Shown in pieces: positions 2,921 through 34,801 of a stretch of 64,000 bases of DNA. The notes under the pieces are model-generated. The model made no database searches and was not told the origin of the DNA. It was given only the letters and a program-made list of their open reading frames with translations. Position numbers and translations under genes: made by a program. How positions within the stretch are numbered: the stretch's first letter is position 1; each line of letters opens with the position of its first letter. The DNA is from Clostridia bacterium (GTDB lineage: Bacteria; Bacillota; Clostridia; UMGS1840): the NCBI GenBank assembly GCA_017625695.1, contig JAGAKI010000076.1, forward strand, positions 1 to 64,000, given 5' to 3'.

Positions 2921-3952
2921 CTACAAAAGCGCCGCTATTTCATTGTTGAATAATTCAGCCGAACAGCGATAACCAAATATCCCGCGCGGGTAATTGTTTA
3001 TCCATTCATTAAGCTTTAATAATTCTTCGTCCGGGTACTTTTCGAAATTAGTTCCCTTCGGATAATGGCGGCGCGCCATTTTGTTTATATTCTCATTTGT
3101 TCCACGTTCCCAACTGCTGTAAGCGTGGCAATAATAAAATTGTGTGCGCTTTCCTCCAAAAATAGATTTTTCCATACCTTCAACGTCGGAAAACTCCGAA
3201 CCGTTATCAACTGTAATTGATTTGAATACAAGTGGGAAAAGATTTCGCCAATTCTTTTCTAATGCGTCAAGCGCTGCAACGACGTTTTCGGCCGTCTTTG
3301 CTTTTATAGGTATAACAATTTCGTCGCGCGTCTTCCGCTCCGATAACATAAGAAGGGTTTTGCGGCTTCTCTTTGCACCTTCGACGCAATCCATTTCCCA
3401 ATGGCCGAATTCTTCACGCGTTAATATTTCCGCGGGTCTGTTTTCGATACTTTCGCCCGCGCTGCGGCGCTTCTGCTTAACTCTGTTATAGTGGCGCTTT
3501 TTCTTTTTGCCTTTCACGGGCAAATTTTTATTTGTTAAGTGAAGGAATATCCCTTTTTCAATATAGCTGTATAAAGTGCTTACGGAAATAGTTGTATCAA
3601 AAACAAGCCCTTCCGCTTTGATTTCACCCAAAACAGCAGCGGGGGAATATTTGTCGTTTATTATTCTATCTTCTATATACTGCGAGAATTCCAAATCTGC
3701 GCCGATTTTAAGGTCTGCGCCTTTGGCTGCGAGGTTCGCGCGGTATTTTTCTTCGGCGATGTCCGGGCTGTATCTTTCTTCAAACGTCCAATCGCTGTTT
3801 TTATGCTCATAGCGGCCGCGGCCGATTTCCCTATATATAGAAGAAATATGCTTATGAAGAAGCCCCGCAATTTCGCGCGGTGTTTTTCCTGCTCTTATAT
3901 ACGCTTCAAGCTTTAATCTGTCGTCGCGTGTAAAATGTTTGAAATTACGCAT
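2921..3952 (-). CDS. IS30-family DDE transposase, probable phage integrase
   Basis: 343 residues, full length for the family. The N-terminal HTH_38 domain (about 5-45, FTRDDRLKLEAYI) should bind the element ends. The rve-type catalytic core carries D188 (HWEMDCVEG), D249 (TVDNGSEF) and E282 (WERGTNEN), with the 33-residue D-E spacing of IS30, followed by the signature RRHYPKGTNF. Start ATG 3952 with AAAGGAGG upstream. The gene is intact. It lies at the extreme left end of the prophage with no private inverted repeats around it, so it probably moves the whole phage. A free-living IS inserted at the edge is the alternative. Confidence 0.9.
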   Translation of the reverse strand: MRNFKHFTRDDRLKLEAYIRAGKTPREIAGLLHKHISSIYREIGRGRYEHKNSDWTFEERYSPDIAEEKYRANLAAKGADLKIGADLEFSQYIEDRIINDKYSPAAVLGEIKAEGLVFDTTISVSTLYSYIEKGIFLHLTNKNLPVKGKKKKRHYNRVKQKRRSAGESIENRPAEILTREEFGHWEMDCVEGAKRSRKTLLMLSERKTRDEIVIPIKAKTAENVVAALDALEKNWRNLFPLVFKSITVDNGSEFSDVEGMEKSIFGGKRTQFYYCHAYSSWERGTNENINKMARRHYPKGTNFEKYPDEELLKLNEWINNYPRGIFGYRCSAELFNNEIAALL

Positions 3953-4726: not shown

Positions 4727-4981
4727 TTATTCGTTTTCGGCTTCCTCCGCAAGAAGCCACGCCGTTTCAACCTTTAATACTTTTGAAAATACCTTCAATT
4801 CGTAGTCGGTAACGAAGCGCGTTCCGATTTCTATTCTTGAAATGCTGTCCCGCTCTATAATTACGCCGTTAATCTGCATTTGCGCCGCAAGGTCGGATTG
4901 TGTTAATTGCCGCTTGAAGCGCGCTTCCCGTATGCGACGGCCGCAAATATTCTTTTTCCCGTTATAATCGTATATTTTCAT
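4727..4981 (-). CDS. XRE-family phage repressor
   Basis: 84 residues, ATG 4981 with GAAGGGA upstream. A single helix-turn-helix domain (CGRRIREARFKRQLTQSDLAAQM, then DSISRIEIGTRFVTDYELKVFSKVL) fills the protein. There is no C-terminal peptidase or dimerisation domain of the LexA/CI type, so it is a small Cro/CI-like regulator. It is divergent from the channel gene and faces dyad sequences at 5011-5070, the likely operators. It is the best candidate for the lysogeny repressor. Confidence 0.85.
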   Translation of the reverse strand: MKIYDYNGKKNICGRRIREARFKRQLTQSDLAAQMQINGVIIERDSISRIEIGTRFVTDYELKVFSKVLKVETAWLLAEEAENE

Positions 4982-5010: not shown

Positions 5011-5070
5011 GTGCTAATGTTCAGCACTATTCTTGACTTTAACACATTTTTTCGTTATAATTGTGTTAAA
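5011..5070. promoter_or_regulatory. Divergent control region with channel promoter and operator dyads
   Basis: A plus-strand promoter, TTGACT 5033-5038 and TATAAT 5056-5061 with a 17-base spacer, drives the channel gene. TTTAACACA (5038-5046) and TGTGTTAAA (5062-5070) form a 9-bp inverted repeat that brackets the spacer and -10. GTGCT-AATGTTC-AGCAC (5011-5027) is a second, shorter dyad nearer the repressor gene. Binding by the adjacent XRE protein is inferred. Confidence 0.7.
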
Positions 5071-5161
5071 GATAAGAATTTAACGTTTTTAGTTGAAAAC
5101 GCCGACTTCTTTTCATATAATATTTTATAACGTATTAAATAATTGCGAAAGAAGGTACATT

Positions 5162-5968
5162 ATGAAGAATTTGAAACAATGGGTTTTTTGTATGCTGCAA
5201 CCCGACGAAAAAGAAACAAAAGCAGAAAAAATATTCGATGTTTTTATAATATCGCTTATTATAATAAATGTTGTAATGGTTATTGCCGATACATTTTCAC
5301 TTCCTGCCGCTGTAAAAACGGCCTTTGAATATTTGGAATTTGTATCGGTAATTGTATTTACGATTGAATATTTATTGCGTCTATGGACGGCGCGGCTTTT
5401 ATATCCGGGCTTATCCGCTCCGCGCGCATACATAAAATACATATTTTCATTTATGGCAATTATCGACTTGTTGGCAATCCTGCCTTTTTACCTCCCTTAC
5501 ATATTCCCGATTGATTTAAGGGTGTTAAGAACGCTTCGTATTGTGCGGCTGTTCCGCTTATTCAAGGTAAACCGCTATACGAATTCGCTTTCGCTTATAG
5601 CAAAGGTATTTAAAAGCAAAGCAAGCCAACTTGTTTCGTCGGTTTTCGTTGTGGGGCTTCTTATGGTTATTTCTTCCGTATTGATGTATAGTATTGAAAA
5701 CCCCGTACAACCCGACGTATTCAAAAATGCTTTTTCGGGTCTTTGGTGGGCGGTTGCAACATTTACAACGGTTGGTTATGGCGATATATACCCAATAACG
5801 GGAGCGGGTAAAATATTAAGCGCTATTATTGCAATGTTGGGAATTGGCCTTGTTGCAGTTCCGACGGGTATTATTTCAGCGGGCTTCATTGAAAACATTT
5901 CGGAAGAAGAAGCAGCGGAAGAAGAAAAGAAACATTATTGTCCTTACTGTGGAAAAAAGATTGACTAA
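5162..5968 (+). CDS. Voltage-gated potassium channel (six-helix, Kv type) with zinc-ribbon tail
   Basis: 268 residues from ATG 5162 (GAAAGAAGG upstream); a longer frame from 5093 lacks a ribosome site. Helices S1-S3 lie at about 28-115. S4 has Arg at every third position (R120, R123, R126, R129, R132). S5 is followed by a pore loop with the K+ selectivity filter TVGYGD (203-208), then S6. The C-terminus is acidic and ends in CPYCGKK, half of a zinc ribbon. It is the only clear plus-strand gene in the prophage, with its own promoter, so it is probably a lysogenic-conversion gene acting in the host membrane. Confidence 0.92.
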   Translation: MKNLKQWVFCMLQPDEKETKAEKIFDVFIISLIIINVVMVIADTFSLPAAVKTAFEYLEFVSVIVFTIEYLLRLWTARLLYPGLSAPRAYIKYIFSFMAIIDLLAILPFYLPYIFPIDLRVLRTLRIVRLFRLFKVNRYTNSLSLIAKVFKSKASQLVSSVFVVGLLMVISSVLMYSIENPVQPDVFKNAFSGLWWAVATFTTVGYGDIYPITGAGKILSAIIAMLGIGLVAVPTGIISAGFIENISEEEAAEEEKKHYCPYCGKKID

Positions 5969-7354: not shown

Positions 7355-7711
7355 TTATTCACCCCCTGCAATAACTGCGATAACTTCTTCAAGGGCTGCG
7401 CCCATAATTTCATTATCAGCTTTAAGCGACGCGATTTCTTCTTCAAGCGTCTTTTTTTCTGCTGCGGCATTTTCTGCAGCGATAGCAGCCGCTAACCACG
7501 CCGCGCGGTTGTCCTTTACTTCCTGCGATAAGTTTTCGCGGAAAGGAACGTTTATTCTGTGTTCGTCGTATGTGTAATATGTCGAAGTTTCTTCCGTTTC
7601 GGGGTCTTTGCGGGTATGCTTCTTTATATTTTCATACAAAACGACTTCGGCCGTACCTCCGCAATTTTCAACATAATACGATTTCGGCTTGATTGTGCTT
7701 TCTGCTTGCAT
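7355..7711 (-). CDS. Phage tail-associated protein, unknown, with C-terminal coiled coil
   Basis: 118 residues, ATG 7711 behind a perfect AAAGGAGG. The N-terminal part is beta-rich (SYYVENCGGTAEVVLYENIKKH). From about residue 68 it is an Ala/Glu-rich coiled coil (AAEKKTLEEEIASLKADNEI). It overlaps the 3' end of the reverse transcriptase gene by 44 bases. Position between fibre/DGR and holin suggests a minor tail or fibre-assembly role; that is inference. Confidence 0.75.
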   Translation of the reverse strand: MQAESTIKPKSYYVENCGGTAEVVLYENIKKHTRKDPETEETSTYYTYDEHRINVPFRENLSQEVKDNRAAWLAAAIAAENAAAEKKTLEEEIASLKADNEIMGAALEEVIAVIAGGE

Positions 7712-8735
7712 AGCTTACAACCTCCTTTAATTGCTTTATATTTACATATGGTTTTATGTATTTGCAATAAAAGTAATATGAATTACTGTGTTTTATCCAA
7801 CCCATATAACTTAATATTGCGCGTGCGTCCGACAACGACGGCTTCGGCTTTTTGGAAGCCCGCTTCACCCGGCGGCGTATTCTTAAAGAATTTTTGCGCC
7901 GTAATGTTGTTTTGTTTCGATAGAAGCGGAAGCCCAAGAAATCAACCGGGCGTTCATCGACGCGGAACACTTGCCAATTTTCTTTTAAGGTTAAGCCCAA
8001 AGGCTTTATATATTCCGCGATAAGTTTTCGCGCTTTGTGTAACTGCTTCTTATTGTTAGAAAATAACGCCATATCGTCCATATAACGAAGATAATGTTTT
8101 ATACGCAATTCTTCCTTGATATAGTGGTCTAAACCCTGCAAATAGAAATTCGCCCACCATTGCGAAGTATAATTGCCGATTGGTAAGCCTTCGGCGTGGC
8201 TGTCGATTATGCAATCAATAAGCCATAATGCCGACGGGTCTTTGATTTTCCTTCGGAATTGTTCTTTTAATACTTCGTTGTCAATGTGTGGATAATATTT
8301 CTTTATATCCAACTTTAAGCAATATTTTGTATGCTTTCTGTCTTTGCGCAACCACTTTTCAAGATACCGTTTCCCGTAATGTACGCCGCGGCCCGGTATG
8401 CTTCCGCAACAAAATTCATACATACCCTTCATTATAACGGGCTGCAGCACTTGCATTAAAGCCCAATGTATAATTTGGTCGGGGTAGTAGGCGGGACAAA
8501 ATATTGTACGTTCCTTTTGACGTGGCCCGTCTTTTATTACGAAGGTTCGGTACGGCTTCGGTTTATACGTTTTATTTATAAGCATATCCCGTATAAGTCC
8601 TGCGGCCTTGTCTTGATTTTCTAAAACATAAGCAACCGTCCTTCGGCTTTTCTTCCCGCGGGCTGCGTTTATGATAGCTTCGTGTATATTATCAATATCG
8701 CATATTTTTTCAAATAGGTTTCCCGCTCTTTTCAT
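7668..8735 (-). CDS. DGR reverse transcriptase
   Basis: 355 residues from ATG 8735 (AAGAAAG upstream). The frame stays open to 8921, but that part overlaps the template repeat, so the shorter start is preferred. RT motifs: first catalytic Asp in KLDIKKYYPHID (D143), IGNYTSQWWANFYL (186-199, the SQ-type motif 4 diagnostic for DGR enzymes), catalytic YMDD (218-221), and FLGFRFY. It copies the template RNA with errors at adenines and the cDNA replaces the variable region. No Avd accessory gene is adjacent. Confidence 0.95.
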   Translation of the reverse strand: MKRAGNLFEKICDIDNIHEAIINAARGKKSRRTVAYVLENQDKAAGLIRDMLINKTYKPKPYRTFVIKDGPRQKERTIFCPAYYPDQIIHWALMQVLQPVIMKGMYEFCCGSIPGRGVHYGKRYLEKWLRKDRKHTKYCLKLDIKKYYPHIDNEVLKEQFRRKIKDPSALWLIDCIIDSHAEGLPIGNYTSQWWANFYLQGLDHYIKEELRIKHYLRYMDDMALFSNNKKQLHKARKLIAEYIKPLGLTLKENWQVFRVDERPVDFLGFRFYRNKTTLRRKNSLRIRRRVKRASKKPKPSLSDARAILSYMGWIKHSNSYYFYCKYIKPYVNIKQLKEVVSYASRKHNQAEIVLC

Positions 8736-8846
8736 CGGTTCAGCTTCTTTCTTAATTATCTGCAAGGCTTTCAATTTCTTACTAACCCCGCCCGTAGCGA
8801 TGTATTTTTGCCAAGCGGCAAGGGAAATAACACGCGATGAATGTAT

Positions 8847-8963
8847 TAAGATAGACGCGCGCGGCGATTGACATTCGTATTCGAAGGCGCATTGTTGCAA
8901 TTCCAATAACACGGCCCGCAATTAGCCCCATTGTTCCAATTGCCGCCGACATTCGCCGCGTTT
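8847..8963 (-). repeat. DGR template repeat (TR)
   Basis: 117 bp aligned without gaps to 9021-9137 (offset 174). It contains 29 sense-strand adenines. The copy at 9021-9137 differs at 19 positions and all 19 are among these adenines (plus-strand T at 8852, 8868, 8869, 8875, 8880, 8881, 8892, 8893, 8896, 8902, 8907, 8922, 8923, 8931, 8932, 8934, 8952, 8961, 8963). In the target frame the template is full of AAC/AAT codons. It lies between target gene and RT on the same strand. Confidence 0.96.
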
Positions 8964-9010: not shown

Positions 9011-11311
9011 TTAACGGCGGTAAGAAAGACGCGCGCGGCGAAGGACATCCGTACGCGAAGGCGCAACGTAGCAATACCAAAAACACGGCCCGCAAGAAGC
9101 CCCACCGGTCCAATTGCCGCCGACACTCGCCGCGGTAAGCGCGGCACGCGGGTAATAATAGTAATCGGCATAATATGTCGTTGTCGAAGCGCCGATTTCG
9201 CAAGGAATACGAAGGAACGGGAAACGTTCATCATAACCAAGCTTTTTAGCGTACCCGTCGGCCGTCGGTAACTGATAATTTACTTTCACATAATCGTCCG
9301 TTATGCTGCCGCTGCTGTATTTGGTAGCGTCGGGCAAGAAGTAAATATCATATTTGTACGGGTCTTCGGTCGTGCCGCTGCCCTCTCTCTTGAAAAGTAC
9401 GTCGGAAATCCACTCAAAAGCATTTCCGAACGGCGTTTCTTCGCCGCGGTATATACAAGTATATTTACCGTTTGTATTGGAAACGGGCGAACCCGAAGAA
9501 GATAAAACGTTATCGCAAGAACCCGTCTTCCACGCAATCGCAAAGACGATATTTCCGACCGCTATATTTACGGGGTCGCCGTCGAATGTAATTGCGCTGT
9601 TGCTATCGTCATAAACATCTATCGCGGTAACTGTTCTATTGTTTGCGACGTTTGTACTTCCGAGCGATGTTCCTATTGCGATACCTTGACCGATAACGTA
9701 CGCCGCCGCATAGCTGCTTGAAATTATAATGCGGTTGGCCGCTTCTTCCGCAACTGTTGCTTTGTGGCTTTCGCTGTATGAAAGTGAGGAACAACCCTTC
9801 ATTTTTGTTTGAATGTCGCGTGTCGCGAATTCAACCCACATAAGAAGGCATTTTACATACTGTTCGGCCGCTGTGGTCGTTGTGTATTTGTCGCCAAGCT
9901 TGCGGGCGTTTGACATACCCGAATTTAACGACATAATCGGCGTATATACACCGCTTCGGGAAGTTGGCTTGTCGTCAACTAACGCCATAGGATAAGCGGC
10001 GGTGTATGCTTTCTGTCGCAAGCTTCCGTCTGCGTTAATGTGTATCGGTGAAGGCTTGTAACCGCCTATCGGGTGCGCCGAAATTACGATTTCTTCGCTG
10101 CCGTCGTCATTGTATGTATGCAGATAATAGAATAAAGGTGTTTCAACCCACACTTCGCCGTTGCTGCCGTCGGTAGTGTAGCCGGGTTCGCCTTCATAAG
10201 CATTTACAACAAAGTTTCCGTTGTCGTCGAAATATCCGCAAGCACGTTTCCTTCCGCTCCACGGGTAAATATTGTCGAAATCGTTTGTTGCTGTTGCTGT
10301 GTCTGTGCCGACATTTGCAACAAGGCCGAAGGCGTTGTATAATCTTTGAACGGTTGCGCCGCTGTTTGCGCTGCCGCCGAATTTAACGCCGTAACGGGTA
10401 ACGGTTGAACCTTCAATTTCTGCAAGCGCATTTTCGGCCGCTGCCGCTGCTTCATTGGCTGCGGTTGTTGCCGCTTCCGCTTCGGCCGTCGCGGTCTGCG
10501 CGGCTTCGGTTGCTGTGTTAGCGGCTTCGGTTGCTGCTGCGGCTTCTTCTGTTGCCTTTTCGGTTGCTTCCTTTGCAGAATTTGCATTGTCGGCGGCCGT
10601 GTTCGCTGCATTGGCTGCGCCGCTTGCTGCTCCTGCGGCTGTATTTGCTGCCGAAGTTGCTTTTTCAGCGTTTGAAGTGGCCGTGTCTGCATTTTCTTTC
10701 GCAAGGTTTGCCGCTTCTGCTGCGTCGTTGGCTTCAATGGTAACGGCTGCCGCTGCTTCTTTTACGACATTTACGTCGGAAGCTGCTTCAATGGCTGCCG
10801 CTGCCGCTTCATCGGCCGCAAGTGTTGACGCTTCAACCCTTGCTTCAACCTCCGAAACATTTTCCAAAGCTTCGGAAGCTATTTCGCGGGCTGATTGTGC
10901 GAGCGCTTCCGCTTCGGCGATTACGTTAAATTCATTAGTGCTTTTTACTTCTGTATCGTTGGCGCTTTTGGCTGTTACCTTTACAACGAAAGGAACGCTT
11001 GTTAATTCGCCGCCTTCGGAAGAATAAAGCGTAATTTGACAACGAACATTGCCGCATACGGCAAGGGTCTGTTTTGTAAGTTCTGCAATAATTGCCCCGT
11101 TTTCGTCTATGGTGCAATTATTAAGAATTGCTTTGCCGTCGGGCTTCTTGCCGCGAAGAACAGCCGTTGCCCCTGCGGGGATTTCGTAAGGCTGATTATT
11201 CGCAAGCAAAATTACTTTTATTTTTCGGCCGACATCGCTTTGAACCGCTGTTATGTATTCAAAAAGCATTTCGCCCGATAATTCGACGGTAATTTCCTTT
11301 ATGAATTCCAT
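9011..11311 (-). CDS. DGR-diversified baseplate/receptor-binding protein with BppU-like N-terminus
   Basis: 766 residues. Residues 1-115 resemble the BppU N-terminal baseplate domain (IKEITVELSG, then KIKVILLANNQPYEIP). About 130-300 is an Ala/Glu-rich coiled coil that probably trimerises. The remainder is Gly/Asn/Thr-rich and ends in a C-type-lectin-like fold typical of DGR targets (NAFEWISDVL, then GGNWTGGASCGPCFWYC). The last 42 or so codons are the variable region. It probably contacts the host surface. Start ATG 11311, three bases after the upstream gene. Confidence 0.9.
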   Translation of the reverse strand: MEFIKEITVELSGEMLFEYITAVQSDVGRKIKVILLANNQPYEIPAGATAVLRGKKPDGKAILNNCTIDENGAIIAELTKQTLAVCGNVRCQITLYSSEGGELTSVPFVVKVTAKSANDTEVKSTNEFNVIAEAEALAQSAREIASEALENVSEVEARVEASTLAADEAAAAAIEAASDVNVVKEAAAAVTIEANDAAEAANLAKENADTATSNAEKATSAANTAAGAASGAANAANTAADNANSAKEATEKATEEAAAATEAANTATEAAQTATAEAEAATTAANEAAAAAENALAEIEGSTVTRYGVKFGGSANSGATVQRLYNAFGLVANVGTDTATATNDFDNIYPWSGRKRACGYFDDNGNFVVNAYEGEPGYTTDGSNGEVWVETPLFYYLHTYNDDGSEEIVISAHPIGGYKPSPIHINADGSLRQKAYTAAYPMALVDDKPTSRSGVYTPIMSLNSGMSNARKLGDKYTTTTAAEQYVKCLLMWVEFATRDIQTKMKGCSSLSYSESHKATVAEEAANRIIISSSYAAAYVIGQGIAIGTSLGSTNVANNRTVTAIDVYDDSNSAITFDGDPVNIAVGNIVFAIAWKTGSCDNVLSSSGSPVSNTNGKYTCIYRGEETPFGNAFEWISDVLFKREGSGTTEDPYKYDIYFLPDATKYSSGSITDDYVKVNYQLPTADGYAKKLGYDERFPFLRIPCEIGASTTTYYADYYYYPRAALTAASVGGNWTGGASCGPCFWYCYVAPSRTDVLRRARLSYRR
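9021..9137 (-). repeat. DGR variable region (VR) at the 3' end of the target gene
   Basis: Gapless match to the template 8847-8963. In protein terms 12 residues differ, 11 Asn and one Tyr in the template: Asn to T, S, T, G, S, Y, Y, V, R, D, L and Tyr to F; the framework GGNW, CGPC, APS and RRARL is kept. The GC-rich block at the sense 3' end (9030-9040, identical in both copies) is where an IMH-type initiation site would lie. Confidence 0.95.
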
Positions 11312-29701: not shown

Positions 29702-30393
29702 AATACACCGCCTTTCACGTCTTCGACATAACACCAACTTTGCGGCGGCCTTTTTAATTTCGCCAAACACGGGTAACGCTCCACGACGAATTCGTTTAAT
29801 TCCTTCGGCTTATTGTAAATTACAAGGTCGGATATATGCCACCCGTAAAATGTGTAAAAGTTGAATTCTTTGTCGCCGATTATATATTCGGCTATTTCTT
29901 CGAAAGTAAGACAACTTTGTTTTAATAAACCTTCTTCTGGGATTTCGTCTTGTTCCATATCGTTTGAATACTCTGTAAATGACAAGGCGTGTTCGAATTC
30001 TTCGTCGTATATGTGCCTTCTAATGCTTTGATATAGTGTATTATTTTTGTCAAATCCTTCAATTTCGTATGTTCCGATTTCATCGCATACAAATTCGCCT
30101 ATTACTTTGCCGTTTAAAAAATTATCTTCGCAATACGGTTCGTCGCTGCACATCAATTCGCCCGAATATCCGTATTTAATTTTCCCGTTTGGCATACGGA
30201 AAAGGTCGTCAAGAGTTTCTACAATTCCCCCGTGTGTAAAACGTTGCTTTGCTTTTGTGCAATAAATATAACACTTGAAGGGCGGTTGAAGCTGCGGTTT
30301 GTTTTTTCGAATTTCGCGCGTTTTTATGTGATTTGCTACAAGTCCACACCATTTCGGCTGAACGCTAATAAGCACCGATTTTTCAATGTTCAT
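29698..30393 (-). CDS. ASCH/PUA-like phage protein
   Basis: 231 residues from ATG 30393 (GGAGGTAATGAGAAA upstream). MNIEKSVLISVQPKWCGLVANHIKTREIRKNKP and GKVIGEFVCDEI resemble the ASCH fold, an RNA/nucleotide-binding beta barrel; FYGWHISDLVIYNKPKEL closes the barrel. The middle is an acidic insert. Some ASCH proteins read or process modified bases, but no catalytic assignment is possible here. Confidence 0.7.
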   Translation of the reverse strand: MNIEKSVLISVQPKWCGLVANHIKTREIRKNKPQLQPPFKCYIYCTKAKQRFTHGGIVETLDDLFRMPNGKIKYGYSGELMCSDEPYCEDNFLNGKVIGEFVCDEIGTYEIEGFDKNNTLYQSIRRHIYDEEFEHALSFTEYSNDMEQDEIPEEGLLKQSCLTFEEIAEYIIGDKEFNFYTFYGWHISDLVIYNKPKELNEFVVERYPCLAKLKRPPQSWCYVEDVKGGVL

Positions 30394-31163
30394 TTTCTCA
30401 TTACCTCCGTTTCGTTTTTCTTGAACATCACGACGGACAAATACCAATGTCCGTTAAATTCATTGTATCGCGCGGCCGCTTCAATAAAGCGATAACCCTT
30501 GTAACGCTTTTCCCAATATGGCGCGTCGTCTATGTGTTCAGTTGCAAGGCGCTGTAAATGGCGCTTTGAGATTTTACCGTCTTTTGGTTTTGGTTCTTTC
30601 GGCTTGTCTAAATTTCGGGATTGCGCCCAACGTTTGCCGCCTTCGGGCTTCTTAACAAGATATTTCGCCAAAGCTTCGCACCCTTTTTCGTTGGGTTGTA
30701 ATCTGTCGGCGTTCGTCCAATCGCCAAAAGGCCACATTTCTTCGGCTGTATCTCTATCCATTGCGTTAGTAATCATATGAAAATGATACCGAACAAGGCC
30801 CGTTTTTTTACTTACCTTCGCTTCAATGACGTATATGTATTTCATTTCGGGCAAGCCCTGCTTTTCTCTATATCGCTTTATCCTGCGTATGTAATTTTGA
30901 ATATCCTTGCGGCATTGTTCTTCGGAAGAAGGCATTTCGCTGTCGCAATATGTGCCGTGTATAACAATATCGCCTTTTCCAAAATTCGCATTTACCAAAC
31001 GGACGATTTTTTTTCGGGCGTTCTTGTCGTTAAGGTTTGCTTGTTCCTTTGATGTTGGGCGGGTTTTCGGTTTTCTCTGCGGCATACGTCGGCCGTTGGG
31101 AAATACCGGGTAAAATTCCGCTTCATACATCGCGCCCGATATTATATTTTTTTCGCGTATCAT
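30390..31163 (-). CDS. HUH rolling-circle replication initiator
   Basis: 257 residues, ATG 31163. YVIEAKVSKKTGLVRYHFHMI gives the HUH metal motif (H127-F-H129), and EALAKYLVKKP the catalytic Tyr168 with Lys171, the layout of single-Tyr phage/plasmid Rep proteins. It should nick one strand at an origin and attach to the 5' end. No helicase, primase or polymerase is encoded in the phage, so it probably starts rolling-circle replication using host enzymes. A 426-base gene-free leader with hairpins lies upstream. Confidence 0.85.
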   Translation of the reverse strand: MIREKNIISGAMYEAEFYPVFPNGRRMPQRKPKTRPTSKEQANLNDKNARKKIVRLVNANFGKGDIVIHGTYCDSEMPSSEEQCRKDIQNYIRRIKRYREKQGLPEMKYIYVIEAKVSKKTGLVRYHFHMITNAMDRDTAEEMWPFGDWTNADRLQPNEKGCEALAKYLVKKPEGGKRWAQSRNLDKPKEPKPKDGKISKRHLQRLATEHIDDAPYWEKRYKGYRFIEAAARYNEFNGHWYLSVVMFKKNETEVMRK

Positions 31164-34394: not shown

Positions 34395-34664
34395 TTACGC
34401 ATTTGCGACGGCTGCTTCTTCAAGATTGCGGCCGCGGTTCTTTAAACTTTCGGTTGTTTTACGCTGTGCAAGTTCGGCGCTATATTCGGAACGCAAGTTC
34501 TTGTCAAGCGCTCCCGTGTCGCCCCGCTGCAATTCTTTGTAAATTGTAGCCGTGTGAACGCCCAAGCTGTCGGCGATGTCCGAAGGGCGTTCGTTGTTCA
34601 AGTACATTTCTTCAAGCTTCTTTCTGTCCTCATAGGTCAAAAGCTTGTATTTTTTTCTTGCCAT
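34395..34664 (-). CDS. Stand-alone HTH_38 DNA-binding protein, paralogue of the transposase N-terminus
   Basis: 89 residues, ATG 34664, GGAGGTGTGAAGCACT upstream. YKLLTYEDRKKLEEMYLNNE.PSDIADSLGVHTATIYKELQRG aligns over its length with FKHFTRDDRLKLEAYIRAGK.PREIAGLLHKHISSIYREIGRG of the transposase at 2921, and the following YSAELAQRK with YSPDIAEEK. No catalytic domain follows. It is the first gene at the right end, directly beside the 12-bp inverted sites 34697-34730. Likely roles: early-operon autorepressor, or helper/inhibitor at the element ends. Confidence 0.8.
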   Translation of the reverse strand: MARKKYKLLTYEDRKKLEEMYLNNERPSDIADSLGVHTATIYKELQRGDTGALDKNLRSEYSAELAQRKTTESLKNRGRNLEEAAVANA

Positions 34665-34696
34665 AGTGCTTCACACCTCCAAAAAATATAAAAAAT

Positions 34697-34732
34697 AATG
34701 CGAAAAGACGTTGTAAAATCTTTTCGCATTTA
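34697..34732. repeat. Right-end paired inverted sites, including the right terminal repeat
   Basis: AATGCGAAAAGA (34697-34708) and TCTTTTCGCATT (34719-34730) are perfect inverted copies 10 bases apart. The outer one extends to TTTTCGCATTTA (34721-34732), the exact reverse complement of the left-end site 2878-2889. A minus-strand -10 box (TATAAT, 34733-34738) precedes them, so they cover the start region of the early transcript. Confidence 0.65.
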
Positions 34733-34744
34733 ATTATACAATTT

Positions 34745-34762
34745 AAAAAATGAAAAAAATTT
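34745..34762 (+). repeat. 18-bp direct repeat, right copy
   Basis: AAAAAATGAAAAAAATTT, identical to 2846-2863. It lies 10 bases upstream of the -35 box of the tRNA promoter. Confidence 0.5.
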
Positions 34763-34772
34763 AAAAAAACTA

Positions 34773-34801
34773 TTGACAAATAGGAAGTTGTTTGCTATAA
34801 T
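34773..34801 (+). promoter_or_regulatory. tRNA-Thr promoter
   Basis: Perfect TTGACA (34773-34778), 17-base spacer, perfect TATAAT (34796-34801). The prophage ends 10-35 bases upstream of the -35 box, so the promoter is intact but its upstream DNA is now phage sequence. Confidence 0.9.

Follow-up and report, generated by a model that had tools for sequence, protein, structure and literature searches.

Mu is a transposable phage in which the repressor c and MuA share end-proximal sites. Circles of the insertion sequence (IS) IS30 carry a strong junction promoter, Pjunc, at the IR-IR junction (PMC9333248), and an N-terminal fragment of the IS30 transposase protects bp 9–35 of the ends (PMC7780238). 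In IS1, InsA is a repressor of the promoter PIS1 and a competitor of InsAB′ at the two ends (PMC12428005), and TnGBS, ISLre2 and ISKra4, which have Mutator-like transposases, insert 15–17 bp upstream of the −35 of sigma-A promoters (PMC3942029). Among phages, an IS30 gene has been treated as an acquired insertion sequence in phage FP01, where an 84-aa COG2826 helix-turn-helix (HTH) protein is encoded nearby (2026 paper), and the available part of the publication on the Faecalibacterium phage FP_Lagaffe calls its IS30-type integrase and direct repeats unusual (PMC5883640).

Here we analyse a prophage in a 64,000-nucleotide stretch of Clostridia bacterium DNA (the window) together with its relatives. 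As in IS30 and other copy-out–paste-in elements, there is an IS30-family DDE transposase, a circle with abutted ends, and a −35 and a −10 element in opposite ends (PMC9333248, PMC7780238); unlike in IS30, the predicted junction promoter would drive an early operon through a hairpin rather than the transposase, and the target duplication is about 15 bp instead of 2 bp. The first gene after the right end encodes a small stand-alone HTH protein (hereafter SM), which like InsA is a transposase DNA-binding domain alone, encoded first after an end, and which by analogy would be expected both to repress and to compete. Unlike InsA, it is not a frameshift product but has a paralogous gene of its own, which in the prophage lies far from that of the transposase, and its role is one that we infer. 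Insertion at a fixed distance upstream of sigma-A promoters is shared with TnGBS, ISLre2 and ISKra4, which have a different transposase family; the phage tips lie about 27 bp from the −35, with a duplication of about 15 bp and in either orientation. FP_Lagaffe has the IS30-type integrase, an SM homologue with 64% identity over 76 aa and the same junction design, as well as direct repeats and a diversity-generating retroelement according to the available part of its publication, in which the split promoter, the hairpin, a role for SM and promoter-proximal targeting are not mentioned (PMC5883640). The single components are already known separately, and, as far as we found in a literature search that covered few subscription papers, their combination in a phage has not been described before.

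The interval 2863–34746 (about 31.9 kb) can be assigned to a tailed-phage prophage because it contains genes for terminase, portal, capsid, tape measure, holin and endolysin. The same phage occurs on an IMG/VR contig (L001; 98.7% identity over 8.5 kb) with other host DNA alongside, and has therefore moved. Its left terminal repeat (2863–2891, − strand), which includes the box AATGCGAAAATA at 2880–2891, is common to L001, and the two sequences diverge directly outside the tip; the right terminal repeat occupies 34719–34746 (− strand). The prophage is flanked by two exact copies of a 15-bp direct repeat, AAAATGAAAAAAATT, at 2848–2862 and 34747–34761, interpreted as a target duplication. Direct repeats of 15–17 bp were present in 15 of 16 prophages and were exact in 13 of 13 with recognised tips, whereas mismatched end pairs shared 5.1 bp on average (maximum 11). 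The other two of the 15 are G077a, where a direct search gave a 15-bp repeat, and G107, a complete genome added once the rule had been set, where a 15-bp repeat was read by eye; G077b, with ends 11.5 kb apart, had no direct repeat and was the sole failure of the 16. In circle junctions only about 2–4 nt separate the tips, which indicates that the repeat is made on integration and rules out that it is a recombination core carried by the phage.

Integration appears to be directed towards host promoters. The right tip in the window lies 26 bp from the start of the −35 of the sigma-A promoter of a tRNA-Thr gene (TTGACA and TATAAT separated by 17 bp; 34773–34801, + strand). A sigma-A-like promoter with its −35 starting 25–29 nt outside the tip was found in 22 of 72 left flanks, compared with 0.4 expected, and 10 of 13 two-ended prophages had a promoter scoring at least 9.5 at 25–28 nt on one side or the other. 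Among ends added later, promoters lay at 26 nt in G107 and at 27 nt in L297 and L300, and several others had none; some insertions, such as that in G082, appear from their sequence to lie inside genes. Four relatives of the same genus have no insertion at the tRNA-Thr locus, and there the A/T-rich spacer aligns too poorly to tell one repeat copy from two. A 1.45-kb IS of Caldicoprobacter oshimai, analysed in six copies (L304–L309), has the same type of ends with the same −35 and −10 halves, 14–15 bp repeats in four of the six copies and promoters 27–28 nt from a tip in three of the six; its transposase gene lies directly behind the right end, and the element has neither SM nor the hairpin. This IS apparently belongs to an IS30 branch with unusually long duplications. 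The 2-bp target duplication of IS30 itself was found neither in the prophages (15–17 bp) nor in the IS relative (14–15 bp), and the transposase is therefore classed as a divergent branch of the family rather than IS30 itself. The phage layout could be derived from such an IS that was opened between promoter and transposase, with a copy of the N-terminal domain kept behind the promoter.

The presumed integrase is a 343-aa transposase encoded at 2921–3952 (− strand), with an N-terminal HTH_38 domain and an rve (DDE) core in which the D, D and E motifs are invariant. Its Pfam scores fall below the gathering cut-offs (26.9 versus 27, and 25.4 versus 32.6), so that assignment to the IS30-family transposases rests on its match to phrog_4646 (2.6e-132). 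SM (34395–34664, − strand; 89 aa; phrog_11420, 8e-35) is a paralogue of the transposase N-terminus and the first gene of the early operon; downstream of it, the early genes include those for a replication initiation protein and a DNA methyltransferase in the window and for Gam, ERF and SSB in FP_Lagaffe. The original prediction, made from the window alone, held that SM aligns with the transposase N-terminus and lacks the catalytic part, and both points are borne out: residues 4–85 of SM align with residues 2–85 of the transposase (31% identity, BLASTP E = 1e-9), and the 89 residues contain a DNA-binding domain alone (Pfam HTH_38, 4e-9). AlphaFold models (pLDDT 87 for SM and 83 for the transposase) have an identical order of helices and strands in SM and the transposase N-terminus, and Pfam, BLASTP and AlphaFold agree on SM as a stand-alone transposase DNA-binding domain, a feature shared with InsA. 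A PDB fold search with SM returned generic HTH matches only, none at E ≤ 0.001, and SM also matches Sigma70_r4_2 weakly (E = 0.005). In a tree of the N-terminal region, which is based on few columns, the SM sequences fall together on one side of a branch (SH-aLRT 93), apart from the phage transposases and other IS30 relatives; SM therefore looks like an old, co-inherited paralogue. Of 391 genomes from the class, 15 had a match to phrog_11420 at E ≤ 1e-12, some through the transposase alone; the 14 control genomes had no such match.

The genes follow the order transposase, short junction, SM in FP_Lagaffe, nd4, nd12, Dulem virus 34 and numerous IMG/VR contigs. When the retrieved loci were screened systematically, 41 had the order transposase–attP–SM, of which 30 have distinct junctions; as the presence of both genes was the criterion of choice, these loci give no measure of the frequency of phages without SM. 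SM had been placed at the end opposite the transposase, which is true of the prophage; in free-phage records the two genes adjoin, and they come to lie at opposite ends because integration cuts between neighbours. Phages that carry the transposase and lack SM had been named as counter-evidence, a case that these data address in part. The phage circle junctions had been preselected for both genes; the solitary IS relatives examined carry no SM, namely L304–L309 and L095, an Anaerotruncus locus in which the transposase lies among host-like genes and which we read, from its open reading frames (ORFs) alone, as a solitary IS.

The −35 hexamer TTGACA of a candidate promoter lies in the left end of the prophage (2869–2874, − strand), facing outwards, and is conserved among the 30 distinct circle junctions as well as among the left ends of integrated copies that were analysed. 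The −10 hexamer TATAAT lies in the right end (34733–34738, − strand), at a position conserved in right ends. In the 30 junctions, where the positions in L005, L173, L204, L039 and L042 were set by hand following an automatic pass, the left end contributes TTGACA (mean 5.5 of 6 matches) and the right end a TATAAT-like hexamer (4.8 of 6), with a spacing of 17 bp in 24 junctions and 18 bp in four. A promoter score of at least 10 of 12 was reached in 26 of the 30 junction regions, against a mean of 0.9 (maximum 4) in dinucleotide shuffles. The relatives thus have the Pjunc arrangement, with a −35 and a −10 in opposite ends that stand about 17 bp apart once the ends are abutted. For this phage, with left end TTGACATTTACA and right end TTTAAATTGTATAAT, the spacing would likewise be 17 bp, assuming the 2-bp circle spacer of its relatives. 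Integrated right ends (n = 21) keep the −10 and almost never acquire a host −35 (best score mostly 2, which is background-like, compared with 5–6 in circles), and integrated left ends (n = 77) keep the −35 and meet a host −10 in a minority only. With its −35 in the left end and its −10 in the right, the early promoter therefore appears to be split by integration and to be complete in the circle only; that it is active there is our prediction.

Two exact inverted copies of AATGCGAAAAGA lie beside SM, as originally noted, at 34697–34708 (+) and 34719–34730 (−), and they are the only exact copies in the window. A matching site at the other end had also been claimed, and a copy with one mismatch is indeed present at 2880–2891. 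With up to two mismatches, AATGCGAAAAGA occurs 20 times in the window compared with 16.9 expected, which is not above chance; the signal therefore lies in the exact inverted pair and the left-end copy. The terminal repeats reach about 16 bp beyond the 12-mer, with tips at about 2863 and 34746, and the outer 12-mer lies, as predicted, in the right terminal repeat and overlaps the early start region, where the predicted start falls inside the 5′ arm of a hairpin. The two 12-mers are best read as the arms of this terminator-like hairpin (34697–34731, − strand), whose outer arm is the right terminal repeat box. It has a ΔG of −16.0 (−2.7 in shuffles) and the form of an intrinsic terminator, with a 13-bp stem and a 3′ arm 3 nt from a T-rich run that continues to about 34681 on the − strand.

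Such a hairpin precedes a T-run in all folded right ends except L026, where no T-run follows the first hairpin, and the mean ΔG of the right-end hairpins is −18.3, compared with −5.2 in shuffles. Across 51 right ends, the median start of the 5′ arm is at +1 after the −10, and 1–5 nt separate the 3′ arm from the T-run; the one exception is L028, whose hairpin begins at +5 and is 16 nt away from the T-run. For an RNA starting 7 nt past the −10, the mean ΔG of the hairpin is −9.4, and the leftover stem is usually 6–15 nt from the T-run. This upper stem is not weak everywhere after shortening (−22 in L265). As the predicted start lies inside the 5′ arm, which would disable the terminator, transcripts from the junction should escape the hairpin and read-through transcripts should stop at it. 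This escape recalls the protection of IS10 and IS50 from incoming transcription.

We then asked whether SM and the transposase recognise the same box. After removal of overall similarity, the 5-residue segment that best tracks the right-end box in a set of 47 SM proteins is that of the recognition helix, VHTAT in the prophage studied here (partial Mantel r = 0.65; at most 0.31 in permutations; median over all segments 0.07). In the transposase, the helix window reaches 0.29 and is not the top one; the best value is 0.43, at residues 75–80. An R or K at the position following VH is associated with GCGACA, and any other residue there with GCGAAA, both in SM (14/3 versus 1/17, p = 4e-6) and in the transposase (21/4 versus 3/45, p = 2e-11), with p values that are uncorrected for kinship. 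The trees contain only 5–6 box switches, at which the residue moved with the box or stayed and hardly ever moved in the opposite direction; tree-paired sign tests of helix residue against box, with these small numbers, gave no significance. Both helices covary with the box, which supports a shared site, and SM and the transposase appear to read the same end box. Since the sites also overlap the early promoter, linked control of early transcription and transposition, as the original prediction proposed, is likely; its Mu-type version with a two-site operator is improbable.

We propose, with moderate confidence, that a circle-assembled early promoter, a terminator-like hairpin and feedback by SM act together in a phage with an IS30-family integrase. 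The model draws on the gene order, the split promoter, the hairpin, the helix–box covariation, the duplications of about 15 bp and the position relative to host promoters, all read from sequence. A temperate tailed phage would integrate by means of an IS30-family DDE transposase. Joining of the circle would place the left-repeat −35 16–18 bp from the right-repeat −10 and thereby form the early-operon promoter, and integration would separate the two halves and leave the early promoter silent. Transcripts that enter from outside the prophage would include the complete hairpin and end there, whereas those from the junction promoter would begin within the 5′ arm, lack the base of the hairpin and pass. 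The first gene expressed from the junction promoter would be SM, which may occupy two boxes, one at the predicted start site and the left one immediately upstream of the −35, repress its own promoter and keep the transposase off the ends, and so reduce re-integration during lytic growth. Most likely, by analogy, SM is an early autorepressor and transposase competitor that resembles IS1 InsA rather than the Mu repressor.

A wider statement, which we regard as evenly balanced, is that in a group of Clostridia phages lysogeny is maintained partly by geometry, such that integration splits the promoter, a hairpin that stops only read-through guards the operon, the circle alone switches it on, and a duplicated DNA-binding domain provides feedback, while the same enzyme makes duplications of about 15 bp upstream of host sigma-A promoters and leaves the upstream region of the target promoter intact. 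If true, phages of common gut bacteria would have an integration-dependent lysis–lysogeny switch that assembles and splits a promoter from IS-derived parts; this would explain an IS30 transposase as phage integrase and the truncated paralogue that accompanies it, define a promoter-proximal targeting branch of IS30 with an unusually long target duplication, provide a precise way to locate prophage borders and attP sites in this phage group, and make concrete, cheap tests possible.

One may postulate that the split promoter is an inherited IS trait with no regulatory role in the phage, and that the XRE regulator encoded within the prophage at 4727–4981 holds lysogeny alone. Circle-junction promoters are common in copy-out–paste-in ISs (PMC7780238), and the IS relative has the same −35 and −10 halves. 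In the phages, however, the promoter faces the early operon and no longer the transposase, and they have gained a hairpin that the IS lacks, which makes this reading unlikely; the XRE regulator probably also controls lysogeny. It is likewise doubtful that SM, instead of regulating transcription, assists the transposase as a cofactor in excision, directionality or target selection. Its gene lies beside attP, it appears to read the ends, and SM made from the circle could act on integration, but the IS relative without SM has the same kind of ends, 14–15 bp duplications and promoter-proximal insertions, so that SM is not needed for that chemistry, and the overlap of the box with the predicted start site favours repression.

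The original prediction took the inverted 12-mers as a two-site operator through which SM represses early transcription and competes with the transposase as the Mu repressor does. This is improbable, even though the pair is exact in the window and both proteins appear to read the box. The inner arm keeps its pairing and T-run in all but two right ends, but it rarely reproduces the box in full: the match is confined to about ATGCG in FP_Lagaffe, L157 and L183, and the perfect inner 12-mer of the window is unusual, the other near-complete cases, judged by eye, being L278 and L031 (the latter through a G-U pair). Comparison of the right ends thus identifies only the outer arm as a conserved binding box, and the pair is not a conserved two-site operator. 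Moreover, the transposase belongs to the IS30 family and SM to HTH_38, with no homology to MuA or the Mu repressor, and Lagaffe virions, according to the available part of their description, use cos packaging and not the host-flanked packaging of Mu (PMC5883640). Mu is an analogy of logic only and does not fit by homology; IS30 Pjunc and IS1 InsA are closer. We give very little credence to SM as a non-functional leftover of a second IS copy in a composite transposon: the transposase N-terminus of the IS relative does sit at SM's place, directly after the right terminal repeat, but SM ORFs are intact (53–94 aa) in diverse phages, group on one side of their branch and have a helix that follows the box.

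Several further features of these elements were noted. In another IS30 relative (L310), the HTH and catalytic parts of the transposase are encoded by two ORFs in different frames, which resembles OrfA/OrfB of other IS families. In the prophage, a replication initiation protein (30390–31163, − strand; phrog_3584, Pfam REP_ORF2-G2P) is encoded in the early operon of a tailed phage. Between the XRE gene and a channel gene, a palindrome at 5030–5075, CTTTAACACA...TGTGTTAAAG, surrounds a promoter with TTGACT and TATAAT separated by 17 bp and is a possible XRE operator. The channel gene (5093–5968, + strand) lies inside the prophage on the opposite strand, encodes a voltage-gated-type ion channel (Ion_trans, 2e-34) with a TVGYGD filter, and is possibly a lysogenic conversion gene. 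The prophage also contains a diversity-generating retroelement, with a reverse transcriptase at 7668–8921 (− strand) and template and variable repeats of 114 nt at 8847–8960 and 9021–9134; all 17 differences between the repeats fall at template adenines, and the target is a 766-aa protein encoded at 9011–11311.
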